From an uncultured Bacteroidota bacterium (GTDB lineage Bacteria; Bacteroidota; Bacteroidia; Chitinophagales; Chitinophagaceae), in assembly GCA_903835005.1 (NCBI GenBank), contig CAILLK010000082.1, forward strand, positions 1 to 64,000: a stretch of DNA of 64,000 nt, given 5' to 3'. The position numbers were made by a program, and so were the translations under genes. This document shows, in pieces, positions 1 through 32,049 of the stretch; position 1 is the stretch's first letter, and every line of letters begins with the position of its first letter. Under the pieces are notes generated by a model. That model had not been told where the DNA came from and did not search any database. It saw only the letters and a program-made list of their open reading frames with translations.

Positions 1-3000
1 CATTCTCTGCCATAACCGCAGCTGTATGTATTACTGTTTCTATCCCGCTGATGTTATACGCTGTAAGCAGGTCCCGCATTTTTCTGCCTGCTTCCGCATG
101 CCCTATATCCATAGATGCATAAATAATCCGGTGGCATGTCTTCCGCAATCGATCCAGCTTTTTAACCGATTCACCGCTCAGTGCCCCTTCTGATGTTCTG
201 CCTGTCAGTATTACTGTATTTGTTTTATCTCTTGCCGATGTCAGGTATTCGGCACACGCATAACCCACTCCGCCAAGACCTCCGGTAATTAAATATACCC
301 CTCCGCCTGAATACCTGCCATTAGCGGCTTTGATGCCTGCTGCCCCGATCTTAACCTGGTGATACGTCGGCGTCCAGTAATAGCTCCCTCGTATCGCTAT
401 TAAATCCTTTTCCGACCCTTTGGCCACAACAGTCAGAAACGTGTGCTCATACCCCCTATCCTGCAGGGACACATCTATATGCAATGCCTTTGTGCCCGAT
501 GTCGCATATTCATAAGGTATTGATTTCGTTACCCCGGATATCAACCCCGGATGCGCCTGAAGCGTTTCCGTTCCGATGACTTCATAATTGTCGAATGACA
601 CTGATATGAATTGAGGTATCCTGATCCTGTGCCCTGCTGCCTGGTCAAATATATTTCTCACCGCAAAAATGTCAAGGCCAGCATTGCCAATATCCGTTCC
701 CGATGAAATATACACTAGCGTATCTATAGCTTTATGCCTGCTCTTTAATGTTAGTATGGATCCTATCTGCTCCGCATCGCTGAAGTTGATGGCCCGGACA
801 GACTCGCTGCCTGCCTGCGGTTCGTGATATGCATAACTCACACTTTCGCAGTTGCTCTCCAGCAGTTCCAGCAATTCTGCTGCTTTGCCCGCTGCTGAGC
901 CTGATTCATTGATCAGAACCAGGATGTTTTTATGCTGCAGATGCCCCGCCTGCCATGGCGATGATTTCAGGTTGCTCTCCCAGTAACGCTCATAATACAA
1001 CTCTTCAAGGCCGTTGTATACCTTACTCTTGCTGATTGTACTTCTGTTTAGCCACGTTTTCTGAAAATCGAACTGGTATACAGGAAGGCCCGTCAGCAGT
1101 TTTGAATGCTTAAACACCCCTGTTTCATTGGGGTGGCTGATAACGCCCGACAGCCAGAGCCTCGACAGTATTGTTTCCCGGGCACTTGCATTACTTCCAC
1201 TTTGAACTCCCGCAGACTCCTTGGCTGATGCCAGCAGCTGTACTGTATTGATCGACTGGCTGATGGATGAGTAATGCTGCTTACCGATAAAATAACTTAA
1301 CCCCTTCCCGGCTCCGGCTTCTATAAACGTTACCTGATGATTGTACTTTGTAATCAGCGCAGATACTCCTTCTGAAAAACGCACAACTTTTCTGAGCTGC
1401 CTGCTCCAGTATTGGGGTTGCATTACCTCTTCACCCGCTATCGCACCGCTCACATTCGAGATAAAGTCCTTTTCTGGCCTGCTTAATCTCATACCCCTGA
1501 TCACTGTTTCAAATTCTGATGCTGCCGCTTCCATCATTACTGAATGGTAACCGTGAGATGTATTCAGCTCAACGGCCGCAATTCCCTGATCGTCCAGATC
1601 CTGCTTAAGGGCCTTGATATCAGTTTCTCTGCCCGAAACAACTATATCTTCCGGTGAGTTTAATACCGATATTTCACAATTATAACGCTCTGCCGCTTCC
1701 CTGACTGTATCTTCTGACGCATTTATGGCCAGCATACTGCCAGGTTGCATGCTCTGCATCAGCCGGCCCCTTGATATCACTGCACTAATCGCGTCTTCTG
1801 GTGTAAATACCCCGCACAGCGTGGCCGCTACATATTCCCCGATGCTGTGCCCAAGGTATCCATCGGCCTTTATGCCCAGGTGCTCCAGGTATTTTGCAAG
1901 CGCATAGCTCGTGATATACAACGCTATCTGGGCATTTTCCGTTTCATCAATAGCGCTGCCTCTTGCTTCGCCTGTTCCCAAAATCATTGCTCCGATATCT
2001 GTGGCCGTATACTTCCCGGCCAGCTTCAGGCATTCGTCTGCTGTACTTCTGTAATATGGCGCCTGTTCATATAGTTGCTTTGCCATGCCCCTGTATTGTG
2101 TTCCCTGACCCGGAAACATAAATACCAGCTTATTGATTCCTTCTGTATTGGCTCGGCCTGAGGGCACTTCTGATGATAACAGCACCCTCAGCTCTTCCGT
2201 ATCACTTGCACACACAGACATACGGTGGACATAGTGTTCCCTTCTTTCCTGAAGTGTATATGCTATGTCGCCGATGACCGGTAATGAGTCACTTTCCTTC
2301 GCTGAGGACAGGTATTTTAACAGCGCCTGTTTCATGAGGTCCAGCGATGTTCTTGTTTTGGCTGAGAACCCGATAATATATTTTACCGGTTCCCGGGGTT
2401 CTTCCCGTTCTGCCGGGAGCTCTGCTGTCCTATAGTCCCCGATTATCACATGGGCATTGGTCCCTCCGATCCCAAATGAGCTTACACCGGCAAGTCGTTG
2501 TTTGCCGGCGGCCGGATGCCACGGCCTGTTCTCTTTGCTGATCTCAAAGCACGTCTTGTCCAGCTCCAGTTCCGGATTGGGCGCTCTATAGTTGGCCTGC
2601 CCGGGCAGTATATTGTGCGCAAGCATCGAAACTACTTTCACCAGGCCCGCTACGCCTGCCGCGGAATCTGTATGACCGATATTGGCTTTAACAGCGCCAA
2701 GAATTGTTTTATGTGGGCCTCTTTCTTCTTTTGATGAATTAAACCTGAATGCTTCACTTAATGCCCGTACTTCTATGGGGTCCCCTAGCTGCGTGGCTGT
2801 TCCATGGCATTCCACATAATCTATCTGACCCGACGTAATCCCCGCCATCTTCTGGGCCATAATGATACACTCGCTCTGGCCCGTAACTGAGGGCGCCGTA
2901 TATCCGCTCTTCCGGTCTCCGTCATTGTTGGTGGCGTAGCCCTTTATAACTCCAAGTACCGGGTCTTTGTCCCGTATCGCTTCTTCAAGACGTTTCAGCA

Positions 3001-6000
3001 ATAATACACCTGCGCCCGAGCCTGGTGTCGTTCCCGATGATCCGACGTCGAAGGTCCGGCAATGGCCGTCTCTGGACAAAATCATCCCCTCCTGGTACTC
3101 ATAGCCAGCGTGGTCGGGCATAATTAAGGATACTCCACCTGCAAGGGACATGCTGCAGACACCTAGCTGTATATTTTTACAAGCCTCGACAACAGCAACA
3201 AGCCCGGTGGAACAGGCCGTATTAATGGAATTGGCCGGACCTGTCAGCCCAAGTAGATACGCTGTTTTTGTGGCCAGCGCATCTTTAATGTTCGACATGG
3301 ATGCCTCCCATGCATTTACCTGGCCGGCTTGTTCTCCGTTCAGTACATGATCCTGGAAATAATTGTTGCTGCCGCTGCCCGCAAATACACCTATATGCCG
3401 CTCCCGGCGCCCCACGCTATAGCCCGATGACTCCAGCGCATACCAGCAATGCTCTATAAATTTGCGGATCTGGGGGTCCATCTCCCGCGCCTCATTGGGA
3501 GACAGGTCCCAGAATATCGGATCAAATAAGTCGGTGCCACTCACTTTGCCCGATACTGGTATAAATGCAGGGTTGGACACCAGCGTTTCATCAGCTGATA
3601 TAGCCCTGAGCTCCTCTTTGCTGTATATCTTTATCCCTTCCTGCTGTGTCGAAACAAGATGCCACAGATCAGCAACTGAATCTGCTCCGCTGAAGGCCCC
3701 GGATACCCCTATAATGGCTATTTCATGGTTGGGGCCAGGCTGCTCCGCTTTCTGCATAATGTAACCATCCGGTTTATCCCCGCCGATACTCTGCACCAGC
3801 TTCTCAATTGTATTATATTTGAACAGGTCGGCTACTGTGATATGATTAAACTCAGGAACCTGGTTCAGTTTCTGCTTCAGCTGAATACTCAATATGGAAT
3901 TACCACCCATTCTGAAGAAATTCTGCTGCGGACGTATCTGGCCCGCTCCAATACCCAGCACTTCTGAATAAATCTGCACAAGCTTTTTTTCCAGCTCATT
4001 TACCGGTAAGGCTGCTCCAGCATTATCGCCGAAATCAGGTTCCGGCAATGCGCGTTTATCCAGTTTGCCATTTATCGTTAATGGAAATGATTCCAATTTT
4101 ACCAATATGGCAGGCACCATATACTCAGGTAATATCTTTGATAATTGCTCCAGAATTGTTGACTCTCCAATAATATGTTCTGCGGCATAATAGCCCACGA
4201 GGTATTTGTGGATTCCTGACTCTATGACACGTTCTTTGGCTACAACACAGCTTTGACTGATACCCGTACACGACAACAATGCCTGCTCAATTTCGCCCAA
4301 TTCAATCCTGTATCCTCTGATTTTAACCTGCTCATCATTGCGGCCGAGATATTCTATTGTACTGTCGGCATTCCATTTTACCAGATCACCGGTCTTATAC
4401 ATACGGGTAAAGCCCTTACGCTTATCAGTTTCGGTGGCAAACGGATTAGCAACAAAACGTTCTCTCGTCAGTTCTGGAAGATTTAAGTAACCCCTTGCAA
4501 GCCCTGCCCCTCCCACATATAATTCACCGGCTACTCCTACAGGTACAGGATTTAAGCAGGAATCAAGAATATATATTTTTGTGTTTTGAATAGTAGCCCT
4601 GCAAAGTTTATCTGTATTCTGTGAAATAATACAGGCGACAGTGGCTTCTGTTGGGCCATATGCATTCAGTACCATGGGTATTGCAGCACTAAACTTTTCA
4701 AACAATTGTCTTGAAAGATATTCACCGCCAAATATTATTCGTTTTACATTCCGGAAATTTGCTGGATCAATTGTACTGAAAAACGAGGGTGTACCATCTA
4801 GATGTGTAATCTGATTTTCAATTATATAATTCACAAAACTTTCAGCATCACTTATTGTTTTATCGTCAAGAATGAACAAAGTCGAGCCTGAAAATAACGT
4901 AACAAATATCTGCTCCACAGAGGCATCAAAAACGTAATTAGAAAACAGGGTGGCTCTTTCGGGCTGTAAAAACTTATACTTGAGCAAGATATCAGTCATT
5001 AAATTTATCAGAGATGCGTGCTCTATCATTACCCCTTTTGGCCTGCCAGTGGTTCCTGATGTATAAATTATATAAGCCAGATTTTTTGAATCGCTGAATT
5101 GTTGTAAACCTGCTATACTTTCCGACAAATACAGATTTTCTGAGAGGTCAATCGGTATAACTTTATCAGCAGGCAAATCAAGCTTATTCCCGATGGATAG
5201 GTGCCGATGGCTTAGAATAATTTCAACACCTGTATCTTCAAGAATATAATTGAAACGGTCTTGTGGATAGGTTGGATCAATTGGTAGGTAGGCACCCCCT
5301 GCCTTAACTACACCAAGTATGCCGATTATTATCTCCGGGCTTCTTTTAAGGCAAAGGGCAATTATAGTATCTGGCTGCAGGTTCTTTCCTGTTCTTTGCA
5401 GGTATTGTGCGCGGATATATCTGGCAAGCTGGTTACTTTTTTCATCAACTTCTTTGTATGTCAGGCTACTACCTTCATAAACAAGGCAAATATTATCAGG
5501 CGTATCGGCTGCCTGTTCCTGAAAAATCTGCTGAATTGTTTTTCCTTCCGGACAATCCGTCTCCGTATCGTTCCATTTAACAATAATCTGATCAAATTCA
5601 TCCGGGCTGAGTAAACTGATCTGGCTGTATGGTATATTTAATAAATCAGTCAATCTTTCAATAAGGAGGATATACTGATTTATGAAATTAATGATTGTAT
5701 CTTTTTTGAATAAGCTGGTGGCAAAGCTGACATTCCCTACAATTTCTTCATCACCATCATTAAAAAATACAGACATATCAAATTTTTCAATTTCATACTC
5801 TTGTTCAGTATTATATTCCTTAAGGTAGGTCTTTTTGCCTTGTCCAGGTTTGTTCTGTTTCCCAAAATCCTGAACACCAAACATTACCTGGAAAACCGGA
5901 TGCCGGGTCAAATCTCTTTCAACTCCTAATGCTTCCACCAATTTCTCAAAAGGCAAATCCTGGTGGCTCTGTGCCTGAACCTGATCCTGATGAACCTGCA

Positions 6001-9000
6001 CTATAAGTTCTTCAAAACTTTGGAATTTATTAAGGATAGTCCGATTTGCCTGTGTATTGACAAAGAAACCTATCAGACCGTCAGTCTGTTTGTGATGTCT
6101 GTTAGCAATGGGGCTACCTGTGATAATATCTTCCTGGCCTGTGTATTTTCCCAACATTATATTCAGGCTTGCCAGCAATACAGTATTAAGTGTGGTTCCA
6201 TTACGGCGGGCTAAATTCCTTAATTTTTTACTGATTTGTTTACTAATTGCAAATGATTGATTAGCACCTCTGTAGTCAATTTTCGCTGGTCTGTGAAAAT
6301 CGGTTGGCATTACTAGAGGCTGAAAGCCTGTAAGTTTGGACATCCAATAACCCATTTGTTTTACAAGAATTTCACCAGTCAGGTAAGTTCTCTGCCAAAC
6401 AGCATAATCTATATATTGAATTTCAAGTTCAGGGAGCCGGAAGGAGTTGTCTCCCTTTATAAATGCTTCATAATAAGAATTTAATTCTCTGAGGAAAATA
6501 TCAACTGACCATCCATCACTGGCAATATGATGCATGTTTACAAGAAGAATACACTTTGCCTGTGGATTATCAACTAATAAATCGGGTCTGGCAAGATGAT
6601 ATAGTGTTGCTCTTACCGGAAAATCATTACTTAAGTTAAAAGGACGATCCATATCTTTCCTTAAAAGGCTATCAAGCGATGCTTTATCAGATACGGTTAT
6701 TTCTTCTATTGATATTGATGAATTGTGTACTGTCTGAAAGCCAGATTTCATACCAGGCTGCTGTACAATAGTTGTTCTCAAAACTTCATGCCTGAAAACA
6801 ATCTGGTGAAGGGCATAAATGATACCACTAATATCGGTATCCTTATCTAATTCAAACAAAGCAGGTATATTGTATGCATTTGTTCCCGGCTCATACTGTT
6901 CAATAAACCATAAACGTTCCTGAGCAAAAGAAAGGGCAGCATTTGATAAATGGGTTTTTGGTATATTTATATGTGTCCGACCTGCAATATTATGCAATAA
7001 ACAAGAGATAGATTTAAATTTAAATATATCTGCAACTTTCACATGAAGTCCAGGTATCTTACTAATACGATGAGCAACCTGTATAGCCAGTATTGAATTA
7101 CCTCCTATTTTAAAAAAATCATCGGTTATTCCCACATGTTCTATTCCGAGAACAGTTTGCCATATTCTGCAAACATCGCATTCTGTTTCTGTGCCTGGTG
7201 CAATATATTCGAATAAGGAGGAACTGAAGTCAGGATCTGGTAAAGCTTTTCTATCCAATTTTCCATTTACAGTTAAGGGAAAATCTTCCATTTCAATAAA
7301 TATCTCAGGTATCATATACTCTGGCAGAAAAGCACATAATTGCTCAATTATGGCAGCCTGGGATATTTTTGAAACATTAGCAACAGGAACATAGTAACCT
7401 GCCAGATATTTATTGGTACCAGATTCAGTATTTATTTCTTTAAGAAGCACACAACTTTTCAGAATCCCATTGATTTGGCCGAGAGCATGTTCAATTTCTC
7501 CAATTTCTATTCTGAACCCTCTTATTTTTACCTGGCCGTCATTTCGGCCTAAAAATTCCAGATTACCATCGGGAAGCCATCGCGCAAGATCACCTGTTTT
7601 ATACAAACGATTACTTCCAGTTATATCATTTTTTTTAATTGTGAAAGGATTTTTAATAAATCGTTCCGAAGTCATTTCAGTACAATTGACGTAGCCCCGG
7701 GCAAGTCCAGACCCGCTAATAAATAATTCACCTTTAACACCTATGGGTACCGGAGCTAAACTGGAATCAAGAATATATACTTTTCTGTTGCATATTGGTT
7801 TGCCAATAGGCACGTTGACCGATGTGACAGGATTTGTAAACTTATAAACAGTGGCGAAAGTTGTACTCTCAGTAGGCCCGTAACCGTTTATGAATTGCCA
7901 GGGTTTGTTATTACTGATCAAAAGTTTATTAACGGTATTTTTATCCAATGCTTCTCCGCCCGTCAACAAAAATTTCAAACTATTAAATATGCTTACATCC
8001 GAATAATATAAGCTTTCGAACAAAGTTGTTGTCAAAAACAGAATTGATATTTTGTTAGCTAACAGAAATTGTTTAAAAACCACCGGATCATCAATAATAT
8101 CATTTAAATTCCTTGGAATAATTAATGTATTACCATTAAGTAAAGGCATCCACAACTCAAATGTTGCAGCATCAAATACGGGGGCTGAGAAAAAAGCAAA
8201 AACATCACTATCCGATATATCAATAATATCACTGTATACTAAGCTGGCAACTGCCCTATGCTCAACCATTACCCCTTTTGGATTTCCAGTAGTTCCTGAT
8301 GTATAGATCACATAAATCAAATCCTCTGGTTTGCTATAAAATTGCAGATCAGATTTACTATTTGTATGGTATAATTGCTCAGTCAGGTCAATCCAGACAA
8401 CTTTATCTAGTGACAGCTTGACCGCAGTATTTTCAATCAACTGTTTACTGCTAAGGATCAACCGGGTATCTGTTTCATCAAGCATATAATTTATACGCTC
8501 GAAAGGGTAACCTGGATCAAGTGGCAAATAAGCACCTCCGGATTTCAATATTGCGAGAATCCCAACCACCATTTCCGGACACCTGTCAAGGCAAATCGCA
8601 ATTATTGTTCCCGGTATTATGTCCTTGCCCGTTCTCTCAGCATAAACAGCACTTATATGCCTGGAAAGCTGATTACTTTTTTCATTAAGCTCCCTGTATG
8701 ATATTTGCATTCCAGCATAAACCAAAGCAATATTATCAGGTGTTCTAAGCGCTTGCTCAATGAAAAACTGGTTAATTGTTTTTACTTTGGAATATTCCTT
8801 ATCTCTGTCGTTCCACTTATTGACTATCAGTTCATAATCGGCAGGACTAATTATACTTATCTGACTGTAAGGTTTATCTCCTGAAGTTGAAAGTTGTTCC
8901 AAAAGATATTTAAAGTTTGTAGTCAACCGTTCTATTGTTTCCTTTTCGAATAAGCTGGTAGCATAACTTATTCTTATCTTTAGATATTCAAGATGATCAT

Positions 9001-10420
9001 CAATAAAAAAACTCAAATCAAATTTTTCAATTTCGTATGAATCCTCTATTTTGTATACACTTATATAGTCAAGGGATTTACCTTTTTCCCTGATTCTATT
9101 ACCAAAATTCTGTACGCTGAACATTACCTGGAAAACAGGATGCCTCGAAGTATCTCTCTCAATTCCTAATTCATTAACAAGTTTTTCAAAGGGAAGATCC
9201 TGGTGTATCTGGGCTTCAATCTGATCTTGGTGAACTCTTTTTATCAGTTCATCAAATCGCTCAGTACTTTTAAGCAATACTCTGTTTGCCTGTGTGTTGA
9301 CAAAAAAACCAATTAATCCTTCAGTTTGTCTCAGGTGCCTGTTTGCTATAGGGCTACCCGTAATAATATCATCCTGCCCGGTATACTTACCAAGTAATAT
9401 ACTCAGGCTGCTAAGTAATACACTGTGTAATGTTGTACCATTCTTGCGGCTAATCTTCCTAAGCTTATTGCTTAAATCTTTATTTAATTCAAATGATTGT
9501 GTTTTTCCCTTATAGTCAATTTTACCGGGTCTAACGTAGTCGGCCGGAAACTCAAGGTACTGAAATCCGGTCAGTTTCTCTTTCCAGTAATTTATCTGAT
9601 TATCTAAAATTTCACCTTCCAGATATGTTTTTTGCCATAAAGAAAAATCTTTATACTGGATTTCCAGTTCCGGCATTTTGAAAGTACGGTTTCCCTCCAC
9701 CCATTTATCATAATATGTTTCCAATTCATTTTGAAAAATATCAATTGACCATCCATCACCTGCAATATGATGTAGATTTACAAGTAAAACTGTCTTGTCA
9801 GTTTGGTTTTTCTGGTAATCAACAGTTGAATAAATTTTATAAAATTTAATTCTTATGGGAAATTCAGTGCTTAGGTTAAATGGTCGATTAATCTCTTCAA
9901 TAATCAGTGATTCCAATTTATCATTATCATTTACAATTCTCACTTCTAGGCCAGGGATGTCTTCATGAACAATCTGAACACCATGATCTGTATCGTCGGG
10001 CTGTATAATTGTAGTTCTTAAAACTTCATGACGTAAAATTATTTGTTGCAATGCATATTTCACTCCCTCTATATCTGTAGTAACAGCCAATTCATAAATA
10101 CTTGGTATATGATATGCATTAGTCCCTTCCTCAAAGTGCTCAATAAACCAAAGGCGCTCCTGTGCCGGACTCAAGGGATAGAAACCAGATAAATTGTGCT
10201 TGAAAATAATGGTACTAAGGAATTTTTCTTTTGAACCAATTTGGTTCGATTTTAGTATTTGGCTGATTATTTTTTTATTATTTGATATGAATTCATAAGT
10301 CCTTTTATTTTGAAATTGCTCAGGTGCAGATAGCATTACAGTTTCATTCTCAACCCAGACTGCGCCAGAGTGGCACCTTAATCTATTGAAAAATGAATTT
10401 ATCCTCTTGAGCTCATTCAT
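1..10420 (-). CDS. Hybrid NRPS-PKS megasynthase, 5' part (runs off window)
   Basis: One frame stays open from the ATG at 10420 to the window edge (at least 3473 residues). Domain order, hand-read: residues 1-55 resemble a TubC_N docking domain; condensation C1 (HHIAGDG at 217-223); adenylation A1 (TSGTTGNPKG, INGYGPTEST, YKTGDLAR, NGKLDRKAL); carrier PCP1 (FFKIGGNSI, Ser 1109); C2 (HHIASDG at 1297-1303); A2 (TSGTTGRPKG, NAYGPTEATV, YKTGDL, NGKLDKRAL); PCP2 (FFRMGGNSI, Ser 2175); ketosynthase (TACSTG, Cys 2403; CHGTATQLGDP; KANIGHT); acyltransferase (GHSIGEY, Ser 2859; HGYHS, closer to the malonyl-type HAFH than YASH); and the start of a ketoreductase (YLITGGLGGVGYA near 3383). No epimerase, methyltransferase or dehydratase domain is seen. 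All key catalytic residues visible are present, so the line looks functional. It would add two amino acids and one reduced ketide unit. The first C domain and docking region suggest a middle rather than starting subunit. No clear ribosome binding site is seen. Confidence 0.95.
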   Translation of the reverse strand, partial: MNELKRINSFFNRLRCHSGAVWVENETVMLSAPEQFQNKRTYEFISNNKKIISQILKSNQIGSKEKFLSTIIFKHNLSGFYPLSPAQERLWFIEHFEEGTNAYHIPSIYELAVTTDIEGVKYALQQIILRHEVLRTTIIQPDDTDHGVQIVHEDIPGLEVRIVNDNDKLESLIIEEINRPFNLSTEFPIRIKFYKIYSTVDYQKNQTDKTVLLVNLHHIAGDGWSIDIFQNELETYYDKWVEGNRTFKMPELEIQYKDFSLWQKTYLEGEILDNQINYWKEKLTGFQYLEFPADYVRPGKIDYKGKTQSFELNKDLSNKLRKISRKNGTTLHSVLLSSLSILLGKYTGQDDIITGSPIANRHLRQTEGLIGFFVNTQANRVLLKSTERFDELIKRVHQDQIEAQIHQDLPFEKLVNELGIERDTSRHPVFQVMFSVQNFGNRIREKGKSLDYISVYKIEDSYEIEKFDLSFFIDDHLEYLKIRISYATSLFEKETIERLTTNFKYLLEQLSTSGDKPYSQISIISPADYELIVNKWNDRDKEYSKVKTINQFFIEQALRTPDNIALVYAGMQISYRELNEKSNQLSRHISAVYAERTGKDIIPGTIIAICLDRCPEMVVGILAILKSGGAYLPLDPGYPFERINYMLDETDTRLILSSKQLIENTAVKLSLDKVVWIDLTEQLYHTNSKSDLQFYSKPEDLIYVIYTSGTTGNPKGVMVEHRAVASLVYSDIIDISDSDVFAFFSAPVFDAATFELWMPLLNGNTLIIPRNLNDIIDDPVVFKQFLLANKISILFLTTTLFESLYYSDVSIFNSLKFLLTGGEALDKNTVNKLLISNNKPWQFINGYGPTESTTFATVYKFTNPVTSVNVPIGKPICNRKVYILDSSLAPVPIGVKGELFISGSGLARGYVNCTEMTSERFIKNPFTIKKNDITGSNRLYKTGDLARWLPDGNLEFLGRNDGQVKIRGFRIEIGEIEHALGQINGILKSCVLLKEINTESGTNKYLAGYYVPVANVSKISQAAIIEQLCAFLPEYMIPEIFIEMEDFPLTVNGKLDRKALPDPDFSSSLFEYIAPGTETECDVCRIWQTVLGIEHVGITDDFFKIGGNSILAIQVAHRISKIPGLHVKVADIFKFKSISCLLHNIAGRTHINIPKTHLSNAALSFAQERLWFIEQYEPGTNAYNIPALFELDKDTDISGIIYALHQIVFRHEVLRTTIVQQPGMKSGFQTVHNSSISIEEITVSDKASLDSLLRKDMDRPFNLSNDFPVRATLYHLARPDLLVDNPQAKCILLVNMHHIASDGWSVDIFLRELNSYYEAFIKGDNSFRLPELEIQYIDYAVWQRTYLTGEILVKQMGYWMSKLTGFQPLVMPTDFHRPAKIDYRGANQSFAISKQISKKLRNLARRNGTTLNTVLLASLNIMLGKYTGQEDIITGSPIANRHHKQTDGLIGFFVNTQANRTILNKFQSFEELIVQVHQDQVQAQSHQDLPFEKLVEALGVERDLTRHPVFQVMFGVQDFGKQNKPGQGKKTYLKEYNTEQEYEIEKFDMSVFFNDGDEEIVGNVSFATSLFKKDTIINFINQYILLIERLTDLLNIPYSQISLLSPDEFDQIIVKWNDTETDCPEGKTIQQIFQEQAADTPDNICLVYEGSSLTYKEVDEKSNQLARYIRAQYLQRTGKNLQPDTIIALCLKRSPEIIIGILGVVKAGGAYLPIDPTYPQDRFNYILEDTGVEIILSHRHLSIGNKLDLPADKVIPIDLSENLYLSESIAGLQQFSDSKNLAYIIYTSGTTGRPKGVMIEHASLINLMTDILLKYKFLQPERATLFSNYVFDASVEQIFVTLFSGSTLFILDDKTISDAESFVNYIIENQITHLDGTPSFFSTIDPANFRNVKRIIFGGEYLSRQLFEKFSAAIPMVLNAYGPTEATVACIISQNTDKLCRATIQNTKIYILDSCLNPVPVGVAGELYVGGAGLARGYLNLPELTRERFVANPFATETDKRKGFTRMYKTGDLVKWNADSTIEYLGRNDEQVKIRGYRIELGEIEQALLSCTGISQSCVVAKERVIESGIHKYLVGYYAAEHIIGESTILEQLSKILPEYMVPAILVKLESFPLTINGKLDKRALPEPDFGDNAGAALPVNELEKKLVQIYSEVLGIGAGQIRPQQNFFRMGGNSILSIQLKQKLNQVPEFNHITVADLFKYNTIEKLVQSIGGDKPDGYIMQKAEQPGPNHEIAIIGVSGAFSGADSVADLWHLVSTQQEGIKIYSKEELRAISADETLVSNPAFIPVSGKVSGTDLFDPIFWDLSPNEAREMDPQIRKFIEHCWYALESSGYSVGRRERHIGVFAGSGSNNYFQDHVLNGEQAGQVNAWEASMSNIKDALATKTAYLLGLTGPANSINTACSTGLVAVVEACKNIQLGVCSMSLAGGVSLIMPDHAGYEYQEGMILSRDGHCRTFDVGSSGTTPGSGAGVLLLKRLEEAIRDKDPVLGVIKGYATNNDGDRKSGYTAPSVTGQSECIIMAQKMAGITSGQIDYVECHGTATQLGDPIEVRALSEAFRFNSSKEERGPHKTILGAVKANIGHTDSAAGVAGLVKVVSMLAHNILPGQANYRAPNPELELDKTCFEISKENRPWHPAAGKQRLAGVSSFGIGGTNAHVIIGDYRTAELPAEREEPREPVKYIIGFSAKTRTSLDLMKQALLKYLSSAKESDSLPVIGDIAYTLQERREHYVHRMSVCASDTEELRVLLSSEVPSGRANTEGINKLVFMFPGQGTQYRGMAKQLYEQAPYYRSTADECLKLAGKYTATDIGAMILGTGEARGSAIDETENAQIALYITSYALAKYLEHLGIKADGYLGHSIGEYVAATLCGVFTPEDAISAVISRGRLMQSMQPGSMLAINASEDTVREAAERYNCEISVLNSPEDIVVSGRETDIKALKQDLDDQGIAAVELNTSHGYHSVMMEAAASEFETVIRGMRLSRPEKDFISNVSGAIAGEEVMQPQYWSRQLRKVVRFSEGVSALITKYNHQVTFIEAGAGKGLSYFIGKQHYSSISQSINTVQLLASAKESAGVQSGSNASARETILSRLWLSGVISHPNETGVFKHSKLLTGLPVYQFDFQKTWLNRSTISKSKVYNGLEELYYERYWESNLKSSPWQAGHLQHKNILVLINESGSAAGKAAELLELLESNCESVSYAYHEPQAGSESVRAINFSDAEQIGSILTLKSRHKAIDTLVYISSGTDIGNAGLDIFAVRNIFDQAAGHRIRIPQFISVSFDNYEVIGTETLQAHPGLISGVTKSIPYEYATSGTKALHIDVSLQDRGYEHTFLTVVAKGSEKDLIAIRGSYYWTPTYHQVKIGAAGIKAANGRYSGGGVYLITGGLGGVGYACAEYLTSARDKTNTVILTGRTSEGALSGESVKKLDRLRKTCHRIIYASMDIGHAEAGRKMRDLLTAYNISGIETVIHTAAVMAEN
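3800..10190 (-). repeat. Tandem duplicated C-A-PCP module inside the megasynthase gene
   Basis: The two NRPS modules are clear duplicates. The C-domain histidine motifs lie exactly 1080 residues (3240 bases) apart, and long stretches match at DNA level, for example around 9121-9480 against 5881-6240. The carrier serines are 1066 residues apart, so the second A-PCP part is slightly shorter. The A-domain pockets differ, so the copies now probably load different amino acids. Confidence 0.8.
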
Positions 10421-10566: not shown

Positions 10567-11064
10567 TTATTCCGGAAAATTGTCTCGATTTATTTGCAAC
10601 TGAATTGATTTTATGAAGTTCATACCAATTCTGTAGAATGTGTAATAATTGCCATTCATGACTTTTGTGAAAAAAGAATACAGAAATTTAATGATGACTA
10701 TTTTAATTTTTGTAAATGGTAGAACATATCCTCCTATAGATTTGATTACAGAATCCGTCAATCCATTATTGTACTGTTTTCCGTTATTGTTTAAGGGAAA
10801 AAATTCTGATTTTATATTTATGTAATCGGATCTTAAAAGCCATTGAAGGTGATAGCTTTTTTTATTAAATTCTTTGCAGGTGATTATTCGTTTTCCAAAT
10901 TCTATAAATTTAATAACCGGAACCTGGTGTACAAAACTCTCGAATAAGAGTGATAAATTATTATCAGGATACGCTCTTACAGTATTATTCCATTGGTAAA
11001 TAATCTTATCATGTTGATGGCAGGTGAGAGCACAATTAATAGGAGGAAATAATTCGATAATCAT
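10567..11064 (-). pseudogene. Decayed NRPS fragment (C-A linker and start of an adenylation domain)
   Basis: This 165-residue frame is not a free-standing gene family I know, but it aligns with the linker and first part of A2 in the neighbouring megasynthase. It has DKIIYQWNNT against DQIIVKWNDT, then LLFESFVHQVP, then ITCKEFNKKS against LTYKEVDEKS, and IKSIGGYVLPF against VKAGGAYLPI. All catalytic A-domain motifs after that point are missing, and the last 40 residues no longer match. It lies 146 bases upstream of the intact megasynthase gene on the same strand. I infer the remains of a lost upstream NRPS gene or module; an expressed orphan protein is less likely. The gap between it and the megasynthase holds only a 21-codon frame that I do not call. 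Confidence 0.65.
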
Positions 11065-11614: not shown

Positions 11615-12886
11615 TTCTGAATATTTTCCCTGCAGTTCTGTTTTCCGACGGTAAGTTGTGTAAAACCCGACGTATCCTCTCTTGCTAAAGTAACTGATTA
11701 TCATCGTTGTTTGTAGTATCGGACTGTGCGCCACTCTGCAATATCCCTTGCTGCTGTTACCCATTCATATGCCTTTTGCTTCGACTTTACCAGCTTCGAC
11801 AGTTGCCTTACTCGTGTCCTCGGTCGCTTCCATGCTTTCCATTGGCATATCCTCAGCCGTGTTCTCACCAGTTCATCTAAGCTTTTCATCACCGTCTTCG
11901 CTTTTGCTATCGTATAGTAGGTTACCCACCCCACAGGCATTGACTGTATCTTTCCTATCCACTCTTTTTCGCTCAGTCCGTTGCTTCGGTTTGTAATATC
12001 CTTTACCTTCTTTGTGATGCGACCAACTGATTTCTCTGATATCCGTATTTCCCATCCGTTTGCACTCCGGAAAAATGAAAACCCAAGAAGTGTGCTTTCT
12101 GTTGGCCTGCTTATTTTTGTCTTCTCCCTGTTTACCTTGAGTAGCAGCTTTACTTCTATATACTCGATGATGCTTTCTGCCACTCTTTTGGCTGATGCTT
12201 CACTTTTCAGATAGAGGCTGCAGTCATCTGCATATCTCACATAAGAATGACCCCGCTTTTCCAGCTTTTTGTCTAATTCGTCTAATACGATGTTAGACAA
12301 TAAAGTACTTAGGGGGCTGCCTTGGGGGTGCCTTCTGTGTGCTGGCTTACCATTCCAGCTTCCGGTATGCCACTGGTGAAATATTTCCTGATAAGTCGTA
12401 GCGTTGTTTGTCCTCCATCCTCCGACTCAACAGATACATCAGCCTGTCGTGGCTTACATTGTCGAAGAACTTTTCCAGATCAATTTCTATAACCCAAGTC
12501 TTCCCTTCATTCAGGTAGCTTTGCGCCTGCATCACTGCCTGTTTCGTACTCCTGTTGGGGCGAAATCCATAGCTTTGATCGGAGAATTGTGCTTCACATC
12601 TCGGAGATAACCACTGATTTATGGCTTGTTGTATTAGCCTGTCTATTACTGTCGGTATTACCAACATTCTTACTCCTCCCTGTGGCTTCGGTATTTCCAC
12701 CTTTCTTACAAGGCTCGGTTCGTAGTTTCCTTCCAAAATCCTTGTACGTAAACTTTGCCAGTTGGCGTTCAGGTAGTCACGAAGTTCATCTGTCTGAATA
12801 CCATCAACACCTCCTGCGCCCTTGTTGCTGATAACCTGAGCAAGGGCTTTATAAATGTTCCATCTGTTCAGAATCCCTTCCAGCAT
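11579..12886 (-). pseudogene. Group II intron reverse transcriptase/maturase, three frameshifts
   Basis: The protein starts at ATG 12886 (MLEGILNRWNIYKAL). Reverse transcriptase blocks include IPKPQGGVRMLVIPTVIDRL, YGFRPNRST, IDLEKFFDNVSHDRL and the catalytic YADD (near 12240). The maturase part follows (LGFSFFR onward) and ends with GYCRVAHSPILQTT. The frame breaks three times: near 12405, where an A4 run seems shortened to A3; near 12330, where C6 in the codons for TPQGSP is C5; and near 11757, where G4 before GNSSKGY is G3. Without repair no full-length protein can be made, so the intron cannot spread on its own. The final frame stays open through domain V and stops at 11579. Upstream of the start AGTAGG could serve as a weak ribosome binding site. 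Confidence 0.85.
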
Positions 12887-13517
12887 CCTACTTTTTTTCC
12901 TCTCTGCCTGGCGGTCTTACTAATCCTTGCGTCTCCGGCACAACTCCTCCTACATTTTACTCTCGGTTTCCAACCTACCCTTATGCAGGCAGTTCTCTTA
13001 CGTGGCTCGGCTGTTTTGCTCCTTACGATAAATTTCCAATACCTTCGCCTCCCGATAAATCGGAGTTATTCTTACATTCAGTCCTTCGGGTTTGTGAGAC
13101 TGCCGCTTTTGCGGACGTATCCGTTGCGGTTCGTTGGCCCCCTACTATGACCTCGGCAGTTCTGCCGGTACCCAGTGACATCTTTGACTGTGCCACCAGT
13201 TCGCCGCTTCGTCACTCGCTCGTAACTCCGCCAACATTACAGACAGATCTCTCAGGGTAAGGATATATACTTTCAGTTCATGTGGCCACTGCATTTACGT
13301 TGTTATATTTCGTACAGTAAAGGGCTTTTGTCTCTTTAACAACATCACCCATATTATTCCACCTTGTATACAATTTCTGTTCGTTGGACCAAACGTTTGC
13401 CGCTAGCTTCTTTCAGATTCGCAGTCACCCGCGACACCCTTACTCTTGGCTAATATTCCTTACTGTAAAGCGTATTCGGGGCTTGCACCCTATAGCTTAT
13501 ATCCATGCCTGACACAC
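12887..13517 (-). ncRNA. Group II intron 5' structured region (domains I to IV)
   Basis: About 630 bases between the intron 5' end and the reverse transcriptase start. It has no conserved reading frame and is much more GC-rich and structured than the flanking AT-rich DNA. It includes GGGTGCAAGCCCCGAATACG close to the 5' end, a stretch of the kind found in domain I. I did not fold it; domain limits are not assigned. Confidence 0.6.
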
Positions 13518-13571: not shown

Positions 13572-16500
13572 TTATTGCTCAATAACAAAATGGAACACAG
13601 TACGTTCTGCACCTGTACTAAGAGTGAGCAGATATACCCCGTTTGCCAAATTGGTTAATGCCATTTTATGGTCAATAGAACCATTTACAGCTTCTATGGA
13701 ACCCGTATATATAATCTGTCCCAGCATATTGGTTATCTCAATATTCAGCATTTCATTTACACTGCTGCCCAATGTGCCTTTCAAGCTGAAAGAGCCATTA
13801 TTTGGGTTAGGCATCAACTTGATGTCAGCACCTGATGCTGTTACTTGTTTAACGCCTACGCCCAGCAAACTCAGAGTAATAGATGCCGATGCAGAATTTC
13901 CACCGCATGTACCGCTTGCTGTAACAGTACAAGTTACCAGATCTCCGTTGAAATAAGACATACCGGCAAAAGTAGAATTAGTAGCTCCCGCTATCAGATT
14001 CCCGTTTACATACCACTGATAAGTAGGGTTAGAACCACCATTAGTAACCAATACTTTTATTGAATCTACCTGAGTTATACCAACACCATTTCCCGGAAAA
14101 GCCTCAACAGATACAACAGGCGTCAGCATAGTATCATAGTATACGCGTGCATTACCTATCATTGAATTGGCGCATGGTGTTATATCACTGTTACCAACTA
14201 CAGTGTATGTACCTGGTGTAGTCTGCAAACCGAAATTGAGGCTGGAACCTGTGCCATACAATGAACCCAATGCACTTGTATCACGATATAACTGATAGCT
14301 GATACCTGCATCTGAACCGTTGATTCCAACTGCTACTCCTGATCCACCTGCACAGAAACCGCCACCCCCAGTTACTGTGTGTGCAGTAGGCAATGGAATA
14401 ATATTAAGGGTTACGCTTGCTGGCATATTAGTTACACAAGATCCGAGAGTTGCTGATACAGAGTATACACCAGCAATAGATTCAAGACCAAAAGTAATTG
14501 GAGTGCCGGTATGGCCGGAAACAGATGATCCAACAATAGTTGAGCCACGGAACAATTGATAAGTTACCCCGGTCTGGGAGTTGATCAGGCCTATATGAAG
14601 ACCTGAATCACTGGCACAGTAATTACCTGAATTATCTATTGTAACAGCATATGGAACCGGAGCCGGCAATAAGCTTACATTAACACTGCCAGCCATTGTA
14701 TTGCCGCAACCGGTTATTGTATTTACTGCTGTTACAGTGTATGCACCTGGCGTGGTCTGCAATCCGAAATTCAGAGGCAGGCCTGTAGTACCAGATATCG
14801 GCGAACCAGTTATGACACCACCAACCTGCAATTGATAACTTATTCCACTCACTGAACTGGACAAACCAACAACCTCACCGCTGCCACCAGGGCAATAGGA
14901 GCCGCCACCGGTTACTGTCTGCGCAACCGGAAGGCTGTTAACTACAACTAAAGCACTGCCGGCCATATTGCCTGCACAGCCCAACATTGTATCGGTAGCT
15001 ATTACAGAATAACTACCTGATCCTGTAATCAGTCCATAGCTTAAAGGCAAACCGGTACCTGAAAGTGGTAAGCCTACCGGGCTGCTGCCACTGGTTACCA
15101 ACTGGTATTTAATGCCTGGTGTCGAACCACTCAGATTAACAAGTACGCCTGTCCCTCCTGAGCAGTATGAACCACCGCCGGTTACAGTATAAACAGTTGG
15201 TGTTATGGTATTAATGGTAACAGTGCCAAGCATGTTCGAAGTACAACCAGTAGTCGCATCCGTTCCTTTAGCTGTATAAGTTCCGAAAGTATCCACACCA
15301 AAGCTAAGTAAACCAGTTACACCAGCAGATGGTGTACCAACAGGGACTCCATCACGGTATAGCTGATAATTAACATTGAGATCCGAACCTGAGAGATTAA
15401 TTGGCTGACCTGAACCACCAATACAATAGTTTCCGCCACCTGTAAGGTTATACTGAATAGGCAAGGCGCTTACATTAATAAGTGCACTTCCGCTCATTGT
15501 ACTTGTACAACCGGTTAATGGATTCGTTGCAGTTACTGTATAGGCACCATTAACGGTTTTCAGTCCGAAATTCAAAATACTACCTGTTCCCGATAAAGCT
15601 GAGCCGGATAAGATACCGCCGCTGTATAACTGGTAGTTTACACCAGCTGTTGATCCACTTAAATAAACAGGAAAGCCTGTGCCACCTGCACAAAGGCTGC
15701 CACCCCCTGTCACTGTATCAATTATGGGTAACGGATTGACTGAAACTGTTGCACTTCCGATCATAGATCTGGTACATGAAGTTGTTCCGACTATCGCTAT
15801 TACTGTATAGACACCCGGAACCGACTGCGTGCCAAAATTAAGCGGGCTGCCTGTACCAGCAACAGTCGTGATTATGCTTCCTGACAGAAGTAACTGATAA
15901 GATACTCCGCTGTTAGAACCGTTTAGTAAAATATCTGGTCCTGATCCCCCTGAGCAATAGCTGCCACCACCGGTAACATTATGTAAAGCAGGCAGTGGAT
16001 TAATGCCTATGGTTGCACTTCCGGTCAGCATAATGCTACAGCCGGTTACCGCATTGGTTGCCAAAACTGTATATGTACCAACTGTAGTAAAATCACCGAA
16101 ATCAATAGAGGATCCCGTTCCTCCACGCGATATGCCGATTGGTGTAGTTCCCAGATATAACTGATAATTTACACCACCTTCTGAATTACTCGTAAAGATA
16201 TCTGAACCACTGGTTCCGGCACAATAATTGCCTCCACCATTTACAAGCAACGACCCGTCTGGCAACGAATTCATTGTTATTACTGCGGTACCAAACATAT
16301 TAGCGGTACATCCGGTCGAAACATTGGTAGCTTGAACAGTATACATACCGGTTACAGTCTGAGCTCCGAAATCAAGGCCAGAACCTGAACCACCTACAGT
16401 TAATACTGTACCACCACCATATATCAAGGAATAATTTATGCCAGGTGTTGAGTAAGAAAGACCAACATGCACACCTGCACTGCCTGCACAATAGCTGCCA

Positions 16501-19202
16501 CCACCTGTTACTGTATTAACAGCAGGTAGCGGGTTGATTATTATGGTTACGCTGCCTGTCATGATGGCGGTACATCCAGCTACATTCGTTGCTATAACAG
16601 TATAAGTACCCGCCCCTGTAAAGAGCCCGAAGTTCAGACTGCCTCCGCTGCTCAATATCGGTGAGCCTACCGGTGCAGAGCCAAGAAATACCTGGTAAGT
16701 TGTGCCGGCATCCGAACCACTGAGGATAATTGGTGCACCTGTACCACCAGCACAGTAACCACCACCACCTGTTACAGTATATAGTGTTGGGGCCGCCGTA
16801 ACACTTATTGTTGCACTGCTGCCCTGAATCTGGCTGCAACCTGTTATAGCATTTGTTGCCAATACTGTATAGGTACCTGTTGCTGTATAAGATCCGAAAC
16901 CCAGCGCTAATCCGCTACCAGGATATACCGGACCAACCGGTGATGCTCCGTTAAATAACTGATAATTGATCCCCATGTCTGATCCATCTGTACCCAGAGG
17001 GCTTCCTGCACCGCCTACGCAATAACCGCCGCCACCGGTAATATTATGTATTGCAGGCAACGGATTGACAGACACAGTTACTGAACCGGTCATATTTACT
17101 GAACATCCGGTAACTGAATTTGTAGCTGAAACTGTATAAATACCTGGCGCAGTATATACACCAAAGTCGAGTCCGGAATTGGATCCCGGCGTAAGAAGTG
17201 ATACAGGAGAACCTCCCATAAGCAAGGTATAGCCTACACCGGTACTTGCATATGAAAGGCCTATATGGACACCTGTACCACCTGCACAATAAGCGCCACC
17301 ACCTGTAACAACATATGCTGTTGGTACAGGATTAACAAGTATTGAACTGGTAATACTGCATCCCGTAGTTAAGCTGTAAGTAACTGTTGTAGTGCCAGGG
17401 CCAACACCGGAAAGAACACCGGTGAAAGTATTGATTGTTGCTGCCAGCAAATTGCTGCTTGTCCAGGTCCCGCCGCCGCCATCAGTTAATGTAAGGCTGC
17501 CGCCAACACACATATTACTGCCGCCGGATATAGCTGCTGGTAAAGCATTAACCACAAGCGGAGTAGTAATATGACAACCCGTAGATGCCAGCGTATAAGT
17601 TATCGTTGGTGTACCCGCAGATACTCCTGTAGCTATACCTGTACCAACGCCTATTGTGGCCTGTGAAGTATTACTGCTTGACCATGTGCCACCCGATACC
17701 GGATCTGAAAGAGTAGTAGTTGAACCTGCACAAACACTGGTTGTACCGGTAATCGGTGCGGGAAGCGGATTAACGGTTATTGTTTCTGATATCACACATC
17801 CATTTGCTGATGTATAGGTAATACTGCTTGTTCCCGGAATGACCCCGGTAACAACTCCGCTGCCTACACCAACCGTAGCCACTGAAGTTGTACCACTGGT
17901 CCACGATCCTCCTGTAAGCGCATCTGTAAGTGTTGTTGTTGCTCCCGAAGCACAAACAGTAGGAATACCACCTATAGCTGCAGGTGTTGGATAAATTGTT
18001 ACTGTAGTAGTTGATGGCGCACATCCTGTTGGTAAAGTATAGCTGATTACTGCTGTGCCTGCCGTAATGCCGGAAACAACACCTGAAGGGCTGACTGCTG
18101 CAACAGACGGATTAGAACTGAGCCATGTACCGCCACCGGCATCACTTAAAGTAGTTGTATTGCCTACACAGGCGCTTGTTGTACCTGTAATCGGGCCTGG
18201 CAATGGGAGCACTGTAACTGATGTAGTTGCAGATACACCACCGCAGGGGTTAGCTTCCTGATAAGTTACAGTAACCGTACCTGGAGCCACTCCTGTAAGA
18301 ACACCGGTTGCTGCATTTATTGTAGCTATTGAAGTATTACTGCTCAGCCATGTACCACCTGTTGCAGTAGGGTTAGTGAGCGTAATTGATGAGCCTGGAC
18401 AAACCGGGGTAGAACCAACTATTGAACCGGGAGAGGTACATAATACTGTTAGAATAAGCTGTCCGTTTCCTGAAGCCGCTGAATAACCTTGCGTATGTAT
18501 TACTCCTGAGCATAAAACAGGATCTGTATATGAAGATCCGCCGCCGCCGCCGCTTTCAATATTGCCGCCGCCGCCGCCATAGTAGCCGCCGCCGCCGCCG
18601 CCGGAAGAACCTCCTGCAGTTCCTCCAACACCAAACGAGCCTGTACCACTGCCACCAGAACCGCCGCCTACCTGGGTTCCGCCGCTACCAGCGCCGCCGC
18701 AACAATAAGCCGCACCTGTTCCTCCTATAAGGCCGCCGCCAACTCCGCCTGCTGCATTAAAATCGCCGCCGCCGCCGCCGCCGCCTGCTACCACCAGCCT
18801 TCCGGTATACGCAGATCCTGAAGCAGAAGTGCGTATATCTGTTCCGCCGCCACCAGCTGCACAGAAAGTGCCGCCGCTGTTTGCTCCTCCATTAAAACCT
18901 CCCAATGTTGAACTTCCATAACTACCGCCTACGCCGCCAACATAAATATAATATGTGCTGCCGGGAGTAACATTCAAAGTACATTGCACCCTGCCACCCA
19001 AGGCGTGCGGTTGGGCTGTACAGCAGTTGTAAGCGCCACCGCCGCCGCCACCATAGGCATCTACCGCCAGCATTGTAACACCGGCGGGTACCGTATAGGT
19101 CTGACTTGATCCTGTGTAATTAAATGTGACAGTCTGACCAAATGATACCCTGGCCACGAAACACATCAGTAAGGAAAGAGAGAGAAAATAGAACTTTTTC
19201 AT
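13572..19202 (-). CDS. Giant repeat-rich T9SS-secreted surface protein
   Basis: 1876 residues. Signal peptide at 1-22 (ends VSFG before QTV). Residues 23-250 form a glycine-rich domain with long Gly runs. Residues about 255-625 hold five Ig-like repeats of the BIG2 type (for example GVLTGVAPGTVTVTY). Residues about 627-1697 hold twelve repeats of about 89 residues, each with VTGGGxYCxGGxG, YQL, a FG motif, GTYTVxATN and TGC, with two Cys per repeat that could form a disulfide. An Ig-like domain (YQWYVNGNLIAGAT) follows, then a type A T9SS sorting domain (1796-1876; LMPNPNNGSFSLKG, NMLGQ, NLANGVYLLTL). T9SS clients of this kind are exported across the outer membrane and anchored to or released from the cell surface. 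I infer an adhesin or a matrix/gliding-related role; no enzyme domain is visible. It is followed by a strong terminator. Confidence 0.9.
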   Translation of the reverse strand: MKKFYFLSLSLLMCFVARVSFGQTVTFNYTGSSQTYTVPAGVTMLAVDAYGGGGGGAYNCCTAQPHALGGRVQCTLNVTPGSTYYIYVGGVGGSYGSSTLGGFNGGANSGGTFCAAGGGGTDIRTSASGSAYTGRLVVAGGGGGGGDFNAAGGVGGGLIGGTGAAYCCGGAGSGGTQVGGGSGGSGTGSFGVGGTAGGSSGGGGGGYYGGGGGNIESGGGGGSSYTDPVLCSGVIHTQGYSAASGNGQLILTVLCTSPGSIVGSTPVCPGSSITLTNPTATGGTWLSSNTSIATINAATGVLTGVAPGTVTVTYQEANPCGGVSATTSVTVLPLPGPITGTTSACVGNTTTLSDAGGGTWLSSNPSVAAVSPSGVVSGITAGTAVISYTLPTGCAPSTTTVTIYPTPAAIGGIPTVCASGATTTLTDALTGGSWTSGTTSVATVGVGSGVVTGVIPGTSSITYTSANGCVISETITVNPLPAPITGTTSVCAGSTTTLSDPVSGGTWSSSNTSQATIGVGTGIATGVSAGTPTITYTLASTGCHITTPLVVNALPAAISGGSNMCVGGSLTLTDGGGGTWTSSNLLAATINTFTGVLSGVGPGTTTVTYSLTTGCSITSSILVNPVPTAYVVTGGGAYCAGGTGVHIGLSYASTGVGYTLLMGGSPVSLLTPGSNSGLDFGVYTAPGIYTVSATNSVTGCSVNMTGSVTVSVNPLPAIHNITGGGGYCVGGAGSPLGTDGSDMGINYQLFNGASPVGPVYPGSGLALGFGSYTATGTYTVLATNAITGCSQIQGSSATISVTAAPTLYTVTGGGGYCAGGTGAPIILSGSDAGTTYQVFLGSAPVGSPILSSGGSLNFGLFTGAGTYTVIATNVAGCTAIMTGSVTIIINPLPAVNTVTGGGSYCAGSAGVHVGLSYSTPGINYSLIYGGGTVLTVGGSGSGLDFGAQTVTGMYTVQATNVSTGCTANMFGTAVITMNSLPDGSLLVNGGGNYCAGTSGSDIFTSNSEGGVNYQLYLGTTPIGISRGGTGSSIDFGDFTTVGTYTVLATNAVTGCSIMLTGSATIGINPLPALHNVTGGGSYCSGGSGPDILLNGSNSGVSYQLLLSGSIITTVAGTGSPLNFGTQSVPGVYTVIAIVGTTSCTRSMIGSATVSVNPLPIIDTVTGGGSLCAGGTGFPVYLSGSTAGVNYQLYSGGILSGSALSGTGSILNFGLKTVNGAYTVTATNPLTGCTSTMSGSALINVSALPIQYNLTGGGNYCIGGSGQPINLSGSDLNVNYQLYRDGVPVGTPSAGVTGLLSFGVDTFGTYTAKGTDATTGCTSNMLGTVTINTITPTVYTVTGGGSYCSGGTGVLVNLSGSTPGIKYQLVTSGSSPVGLPLSGTGLPLSYGLITGSGSYSVIATDTMLGCAGNMAGSALVVVNSLPVAQTVTGGGSYCPGGSGEVVGLSSSVSGISYQLQVGGVITGSPISGTTGLPLNFGLQTTPGAYTVTAVNTITGCGNTMAGSVNVSLLPAPVPYAVTIDNSGNYCASDSGLHIGLINSQTGVTYQLFRGSTIVGSSVSGHTGTPITFGLESIAGVYSVSATLGSCVTNMPASVTLNIIPLPTAHTVTGGGGFCAGGSGVAVGINGSDAGISYQLYRDTSALGSLYGTGSSLNFGLQTTPGTYTVVGNSDITPCANSMIGNARVYYDTMLTPVVSVEAFPGNGVGITQVDSIKVLVTNGGSNPTYQWYVNGNLIAGATNSTFAGMSYFNGDLVTCTVTASGTCGGNSASASITLSLLGVGVKQVTASGADIKLMPNPNNGSFSLKGTLGSSVNEMLNIEITNMLGQIIYTGSIEAVNGSIDHKMALTNLANGVYLLTLSTGAERTVFHFVIEQ
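14110..17320 (-). repeat. Twelve tandem ~267-bp repeats coding for ~89-residue units
   Basis: Units recur every 260-275 bases; the CCACC-CC-GT-AC block encoding VTGGG marks each start (near 17290, 17025, 16770, 16500, 16230, 15965, 15710, 15435, 15175, 14905, 14635 and 14365). Copies have diverged at DNA level but keep the two Cys and the NPLP linker in most units, so they are old repeats under selection rather than fresh duplications. Unit 11 has lost VTGGG (TIDNSGNYC). Confidence 0.9.
17320..18440 (-). repeat. Five Ig-like (BIG2-type) repeats of ~75 residues
   Basis: Each unit has the pattern C-xG-xxTTLxD, GGTWxSSNxSxAT, GVxxGVxPGTxTITY and a second Cys before a PLP linker. Such bacterial Ig-like folds act as stalks in surface proteins. 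The array lies between the Gly-rich head and the twelve longer repeats. Confidence 0.75.
18535..18800 (-). repeat. GGC-rich triplet runs encoding poly-glycine
   Basis: Runs of the CCG/GCC triplet on the plus strand (for example 18540-18553, 18569-18577, 18587-18603 and 18767-18785) encode the glycine-rich head of the surface protein. They are far more GC-rich than the surrounding DNA. Changes by whole triplets would alter the Gly run length without breaking the frame. Confidence 0.75.
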
Positions 19203-29072: not shown

Positions 29073-29084
29073 TGATCGTTAATT

Positions 29085-30596: not shown

Positions 30597-30789
30597 AGTA
30601 AAATAATTTCAGGTGAACCTTTTAACCCAGAAACAACTGATATCACTTTTTCAGCAGGTGCTGTATATTCTTGTTTCTATCCGGATGTGAAACATCAATA
30701 GATTTATAGTAAAAATAAGCATTTCTGCTCTAATTTTGGCACTGATGTTATTCATACTTCCTTTTCATTAATCTCATGATTATAAAATT

Positions 30790-31347: not shown

Positions 31348-31391
31348 AGCTGTAGATTATACAAAATAAATAGCAACACTTATCCTTACAA

Positions 31392-32018: not shown

Positions 32019-32049
32019 TTTTGGGCCTCAATTCAACTATTCTATTTAA

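Follow-up and report, generated by a model that had tools for sequence, protein, structure and literature searches.

A hybrid NRPS-PKS gene of an uncultured Chitinophagaceae bacterium carries a ketosynthase-acyltransferase pair grouping with gammaproteobacterial and plasmid-borne assembly lines

Introduction

Hybrid assembly lines built from NRPS and PKS modules are a known kind, and the extension of an aminoacyl chain by a malonyl unit is an ordinary mechanism for them. Statine-forming PKS/NRPS modules follow a logic in which A-PCP is succeeded by KS-AT-KR-ACP, and statine peptides are linked to protease inhibition.

Plasmid-borne lines related to the gene described here are found on Salmonella enterica plasmids (e.g. 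NZ_CP040702.1) and on Vibrio coralliilyticus pSNUTY1, with a KS-AT part 49–51% identical to ours. Their order is A-PCP-C-A-PCP-C-A-PCP / C-A-PCP-KS-AT-KR-ACP-C-A-PCP-E-TE; the A domain ahead of the KS is of Val type and no nMT was detected. The line ends with E then TE, the Vibrio TE being in a separate frame. An MFS gene lies beside the line in both cases (L061 8104–29789 in Salmonella, L063 5863–27610 in Vibrio), with a PPTase gene in Salmonella as well.

No paper on this Salmonella/Vibrio line or its product was found in the open-licence literature, outside which most subscription journals fall. The NRPS and polyketide terms looked for in PMC4750946 and PMC7477899 do not occur there, plasmid pSW82 being named once in the latter, and the examined parts of PMC9125672 name no such Salmonella line. 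A line on an Alteromonas plasmid is described in sections of PMC3777966. According to sections of PMC9248904, 12 of 306 Bacteroidetes cluster families were joined to MIBiG references.

Results

A hybrid gene cut by the contig end

The window, i.e. the whole stretch of 64,000 nucleotides analysed, runs from base 1 of contig C82 (CAILLK010000082.1) in an assembly of 5.90 Mb and 163 contigs. Its first gene is a single open frame on the minus strand (2–10420) that starts with ATG, encodes 3473 residues and is still open at the contig end, so that this hybrid NRPS-PKS gene loses its 3′ end at contig base 1. The first-pass annotation had placed the rest of the gene beyond position 1; the gene does run off there, but the contig itself ends at that base. 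The first 140 bases of C82 have no match elsewhere in the same assembly. The features of the gene are:

2..10420, minus strand: hybrid NRPS-PKS gene, 3473 aa, 3′ end cut (open frame, Pfam)
10211..10420, minus strand: probable N-terminal docking domain, residues 1–70 (likeness to L034 gene 3, see below)
8825..10186, minus strand: condensation domain 1, HHIAGDG at residue 217 (Pfam, motif)
7196..8758, minus strand: adenylation domain 1, pocket DAFFLGGTF (Pfam, motif-anchored alignment)
6992..7189, minus strand: carrier (PCP) 1, Ser 1109 (own profiles, active-site residue)
5585..6940, minus strand: condensation domain 2, HHIASDG at residue 1297 (Pfam, motif)
4010..5518, minus strand: adenylation domain 2, pocket DAEDIGAVA (motif-anchored alignment)
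3791..3985, minus strand: carrier (PCP) 2, Ser 2175 (Pfam, active-site residue)
2588..3724, minus strand: ketosynthase, Cys 2403, His 2539, His 2583, member of the shared clade (Pfam, tree)
1316..2125, minus strand: acyltransferase, Ser 2859 (GHSIG), HGYH at 2956 (Pfam, motifs)
5..301, minus strand: N-terminal half of a ketoreductase, 94 of 180 profile positions (Pfam)

The order docking-C-A-PCP-C-A-PCP-KS-AT-KR, previously read from the letters, was recovered by Pfam and by our own profiles, the docking call being indirect and the KR present by half only. Pfam matched two Condensation, two AMP-binding and two PP-binding domains, the N and C parts of a KS, an AT and a KR; our profiles gave an identical order and added the docking domain. 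The C, A, PCP, KS, AT and docking profiles were seeded from the window protein and are not independent for it; they serve for its relatives. The four active-site residues named earlier (Ser 1109, Ser 2175, Cys 2403 and Ser 2859) all lie where they had been placed, both KS histidines are present beside the cysteine, and HHxxxDG is kept in both C domains. NRPS modules (C, A and PCP) whose active sites are conserved thus share one polypeptide with a PKS module, which makes the gene a hybrid, and its integrated AT (139 bits, GHSIG with the active serine) makes it of the cis-AT type.

Among the NCBIfam matches listed (25 of 127 families), an adenylation-domain model and one subfamily model alone reach their cut-offs, and no equivalog does. 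In solved structures, the best matches of the KS-AT part are chains 8xjy and 8xju, named just 'Polyketide synthase'.

Search for relatives

The KS-AT-KR part was searched at E ≤ 1e-60 in 35 genomes of the genus, and the only one matched was the genome of origin. A draw of 294 family genomes contained a KS-AT homologue in 26, own included, at E ≤ 1e-80 (best other 42%), and a draw of 395 phylum genomes, overlapping in part with the former, in four at E ≤ 1e-180 (best other 41%). No further member of the clade described below was present in either draw.

A scan of genome contigs retrieved four loci, with best segments at 47–54%: L034 (Bacteroidetes MAG nzgw121, JAHEYF010000090.1), L035 (Francisella sp. 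SYW-9), L036 (an uncultured gammaproteobacterium, gamma MAG bin.11) and L037 (a Coxiellaceae MAG). Support for assigning nzgw121 to Bacteroidota comes from a different contig than L034, where PorP/SprF and type IX sorting domains accompany an E-TE gene. Plasmid records numbered 59 at E ≤ 1e-150, comprising 12 from Salmonella and one from V. coralliilyticus at the identity given above, the other 46 being at 39.1% or less. The Salmonella hybrid gene gave no megablast match in E. coli genomes. In the order of the Francisella genome, 4/33 genomes matched at E ≤ 1e-150, including those of L035 and L036; in the order of the Coxiellaceae MAG, two of 11 matched at E ≤ 1e-200, a threshold that the MAG itself does not reach, since its contig stops within the KS or close to it.

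The KS and the AT fall in a clade shared with gammaproteobacteria

Trees were built from the window gene, its relatives, 19 family and three phylum or class loci, eight of the remaining 46 plasmids and three KS sequences from the L034 genome, excluding KS pieces shorter than 300 profile positions and family-draw matches without a locus. Both the KS and the AT of the window gene are placed inside a clade shared with the Salmonella, Vibrio, Francisella and Coxiellaceae lines. This clade holds 11 of the 44 rows of the KS tree (100/100, stem 0.90) and 10 of the 43 rows of the AT tree (100/100). It is composed of two Bacteroidota and nine gammaproteobacterial members, four of the latter placed by order only. 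In the KS tree the window gene pairs with L034 (99/88), and both group with Salmonella, Vibrio, Francisella and the gamma MAG (100/99); the junction of the pair with Salmonella and Vibrio stands at 97/88 with 42 rows and at 85/46 with 44. The pair is at just 86/11 in the AT tree, where five ATs of the window's own family are the nearest neighbours of the clade (97/88). KS identities (42 rows) follow the same series: 70% to L034, 62–65% to Francisella, the gamma MAG, Salmonella and Vibrio, 51–55% to the Coxiellaceae MAG, G736 and G714, and at most 46% outside the clade.

The presence of two Bacteroidota inside a clade with nine gammaproteobacterial rows suggests a transfer of the KS-AT pair between phyla. 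Its direction is undecided because the nearest AT neighbours of the clade come from the window's own family. Vertical descent of the gene within the family, as a common type of Bacteroidota cis-AT hybrid, would agree with those five ATs and with the 26 family genomes that hold some KS-AT homologue, but all of these except the genome of origin are at most 42% identical, and 19 of the other 25, those with a locus, lie outside the clade in both trees; we regard inheritance of this kind as very improbable.

The organization of the clade members is conserved ahead of the KS, A-PCP preceding it in 10/10 of the others (across neighbouring frames in Vibrio and G714). The whole A-PCP-KS-AT-KR-ACP series is found in six of these ten (L034, L035, Salmonella, Vibrio, G736 and G714), L036 and L037 being cut by contig ends. 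No KR was detected after the AT in two of the ten relatives, G841 and G844, so reduction is not universal in the clade. The amino acid ahead of the KS varies among members according to the A code. G736 and G714 end in KS-AT-KR-ACP with a weak TE match.

L034 is the most similar locus (KS 70%, AT 54% and the A domain ahead of the KS 58% identical to those of the window gene). It shares the C-A-PCP-KS-AT-KR series, and its gene 3 has a docking domain of like type; however, one C-A-PCP module stands ahead of its KS instead of two. The L034 genome has an E-TE ending on another contig, and the window's own genome likewise has E-TE endings. In the L034 genome, the E-TE gene is followed (L085 101–7091) by genes for a CmlA-type diiron hydroxylase, a biopterin-dependent hydroxylase, an MFS protein, an outer-membrane barrel and a PPTase; the two hydroxylase genes and the PPTase gene in this position are a difference from the window's genome. 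L035–L037 also have A-PCP ahead of the KS (KS 55–65%), but differ from the window gene in their other amino-acid modules and lie on fragmentary contigs. The Francisella and gamma MAG genomes have E-TE ends elsewhere, and a formyl transferase domain (Pfam, 49.7 bits) stands first in the Coxiellaceae gene (L037 212–1699).

PCP-E-TE endings recur in the window's own genome (C73 and C53), the L034 genome, Francisella, the gamma MAG, Salmonella and Vibrio, and only in Salmonella and Vibrio do they demonstrably belong to the same line as the KS. The last A domain ahead of E-TE has identical pocket residues, DAPRVGQVG, in the L034 genome (C192), Salmonella (L061) and Vibrio (L063).

The ketoreductase region departs from that of the clade

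The KR match (Pfam, 37 bits) ends at position 94 of the 180 of the profile, leaving the NAD(P) half inside the window and the catalytic residues outside. Past the AT, the window protein matches L034, L035 and L036 over just 67–79 residues, and so lacks a KR of the clade type. In contrast, the post-AT region of L034, whose KR is of the clade's own type as in the Salmonella and Vibrio lines, matches Salmonella at 41%, Vibrio at 39% and Francisella at 35% over about 430 residues. G714 matches the window's post-AT region weakly, with 24% along the region. The window KR core is 25–26% identical over about 100 residues to the KRs of the L034 genome; its best match among solved structures is MlnE (31 bits). 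At E ≤ 1e-15 this odd KR was traced in two of 394 family genomes, own included, the other at 28%, and the region has no match in plasmids. Judged on these comparisons, the KR region was either swapped or has drifted far from that of the KS-AT clade. The reduction to a hydroxyl announced in the first-pass annotation is accordingly hypothetical, the KR being cut and its visible part unlike those of the relatives. The ACP of this module likewise falls past the contig edge.

A search of the window's own genome for the second half of the KR and an ACP, using the L034 counterpart, matched only carrier domains; this is a weak test, since the window KR is unlike that of L034. A Pfam KR search of this genome revealed no free C-terminal half, all 22 matches starting at profile positions 1–4.

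Predicted substrates

A motif-anchored alignment of 35 A domains supplied nine of the pocket positions, the tenth, Lys, being assumed. These positions are credible since some of the codes match well-known ones (DFWNIGMVHK, DLYNLSLIWK). The code of A1, DAFFLGGTFK, we take to be Val/Ile-like. That of A2, DAEDIGAVAK, is not known to have a definite meaning; its acidic pocket perhaps accommodates a basic residue, a prediction of low certainty. The nearest relative of A2 is the A domain preceding the KS in L034, with code DAEDVGAITK. GHSIG and HGYH would presumably make the AT malonyl-type. The domain order and these two AT motifs support the earlier proposal that one malonyl-type unit is added after two amino acids. 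An aminoacyl-PCP followed by KS-AT, with an AT assumed to be malonyl-type, is the arrangement of statine-forming modules, from which the window gene differs by its incomplete KR. Most likely the aminoacyl chain is extended by malonate, which would give a statine-type (gamma-amino-beta-hydroxy) unit if the KR works.

The upstream flank and the probable docking domain

Pfam TubC_N gave no match up to E 1 with window residues 1–85. The N-terminus of L034 gene 3, 48% identical to that of the window gene, matches TubC_N at 26.7 bits (cut-off 26), and a docking domain is therefore probable at the N-terminus of the window protein. Upstream of the gene, the following features were identified:

10567..11064, minus strand: probable decayed A-PCP relic, A core missing, no carrier Ser (tblastn)
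11701..12886, minus strand: group II intron reverse transcriptase/maturase, split over two frames (open frames, domain search)
13262..13434, minus strand: group II intron RNA, D1-D4-3 family (RNA family match)

The first of these has no Pfam match. Its tblastn alignments number five (E 1.3e-6 to 3.3e-4), of which four cover the start of an A domain and the fifth an A end plus PCP, in collinear order; the segment is probably the relic of a decayed module. The group II intron (11701–13434) adjoins the cluster edge, and its reverse transcriptase is broken, or else split by a sequence error. With a probable decayed module and a broken intron as its upstream flank, the gene has no docking partner in cis.

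Further out, a type IX secretion sorting domain in the protein encoded at 13572–19202 supports the Bacteroidota host proposed at first. Biotin-type genes at 26951–33321 (bioB-, bioF-, bioD- and bioA-like by domain) form an ordinary chromosome flank.

These observations raise the possibility that the line is decaying, its upstream subunit having been lost by deletion and intron insertion, and that the gene makes nothing or a shunt product. The relic directly upstream, the split reverse transcriptase, the missing partner, the restriction to one of 35 genus genomes and a degenerate E domain on contig C53 (see below) would all fit. Nevertheless, 3473 residues are open with every visible active site intact, and no stop interrupts the reading of the genome's seven other NRPS pieces; we consider decay unlikely.

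Other NRPS pieces of the genome

The genome has 15 C or E domains on five contigs. C109 encodes A-nMT-PCP / dk-C-A-nMT-PCP-C-A-nMT-PCP / dk-C-A-PCP-C-A-PCP-E-C-A-PCP-E / C-A-PCP-E-C-; C31 encodes nMT-PCP-C-A, C73 A-PCP-E-TE and C53 PCP-E-TE. In the terminal E domain of C53 (L012 2543–4825, minus strand), directly ahead of the TE, HHxxxDG is replaced by HELIFDRVS, and this domain is probably inactive.

The window gene, C31, C109 and either C73 or C53 could be parts of a single, very large cluster, whose product would be a peptide rich in D-residues, N-methylated and containing one statine-type unit. The starts of C31 and C109 (L002 1–220 and L009 1–220) carry nearly identical nMT sequence, which recurs inside C109 gene 1, so that the assembly probably broke at repeats, as in a repeat collapse. 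L034 has A-nMT-PCP directly ahead of its PKS gene, and the PCP-E-TE end of C73 is 49% identical to one in the L034 genome and 47% to that of Salmonella. On the other hand, the two E-TE ends imply that there are two lines or more, the docking domains of C109 differ in type from that of the window gene (profile scores of 22 and 15 versus 106, and the sequences themselves), and no sequence linking C82 to any other contig of the assembly was found. A single cluster is a tentative proposal, to which we give slightly less than an even chance.

Discussion

We think it likely that the window gene encodes an internal subunit of a hybrid NRPS/cis-AT PKS line. The N-terminal docking domain would take a peptidyl chain from another subunit, and the two C-A-PCP modules are predicted from their pocket residues to add a Val/Ile-like residue, then perhaps a basic amino acid. 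The KS would take the aminoacyl chain from PCP 2 and extend it by one AT-loaded malonyl unit; a KR that is whole past the contig edge would then turn this unit into a statine-type residue (gamma-amino-beta-hydroxy). Other contigs, with their N-methylating and epimerising modules and E-TE endings, may hold the continuation of the line. The KS-AT pair of the gene belongs to a small lineage common to gammaproteobacteria and their plasmids, and modules of this type have probably passed from one phylum to another.

The gene would work by known rules: what is unusual is the ancestry of its KS-AT pair, not its mechanism. That its product is an undescribed compound, as first suggested, is plausible. 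A broader reading is that an undescribed, horizontally moving statine-type family, with members on plasmids of Salmonella and Vibrio and in relatives of Francisella and Coxiella, crossed into Bacteroidota, where exchange of the KR and addition of N-methylating modules led to a new compound class. This broader reading is graded lower because five ATs of the window's own family adjoin the clade, and we hold it to be possible, though somewhat more doubtful than probable.

The module lineage may serve as a marker, being common to two phyla, carried by plasmids of Salmonella and Vibrio, and seldom met with in the Bacteroidota draws. Should the unit common to the family be statine-like, its activity might be guessed to be protease inhibition, by analogy with the statine peptides.
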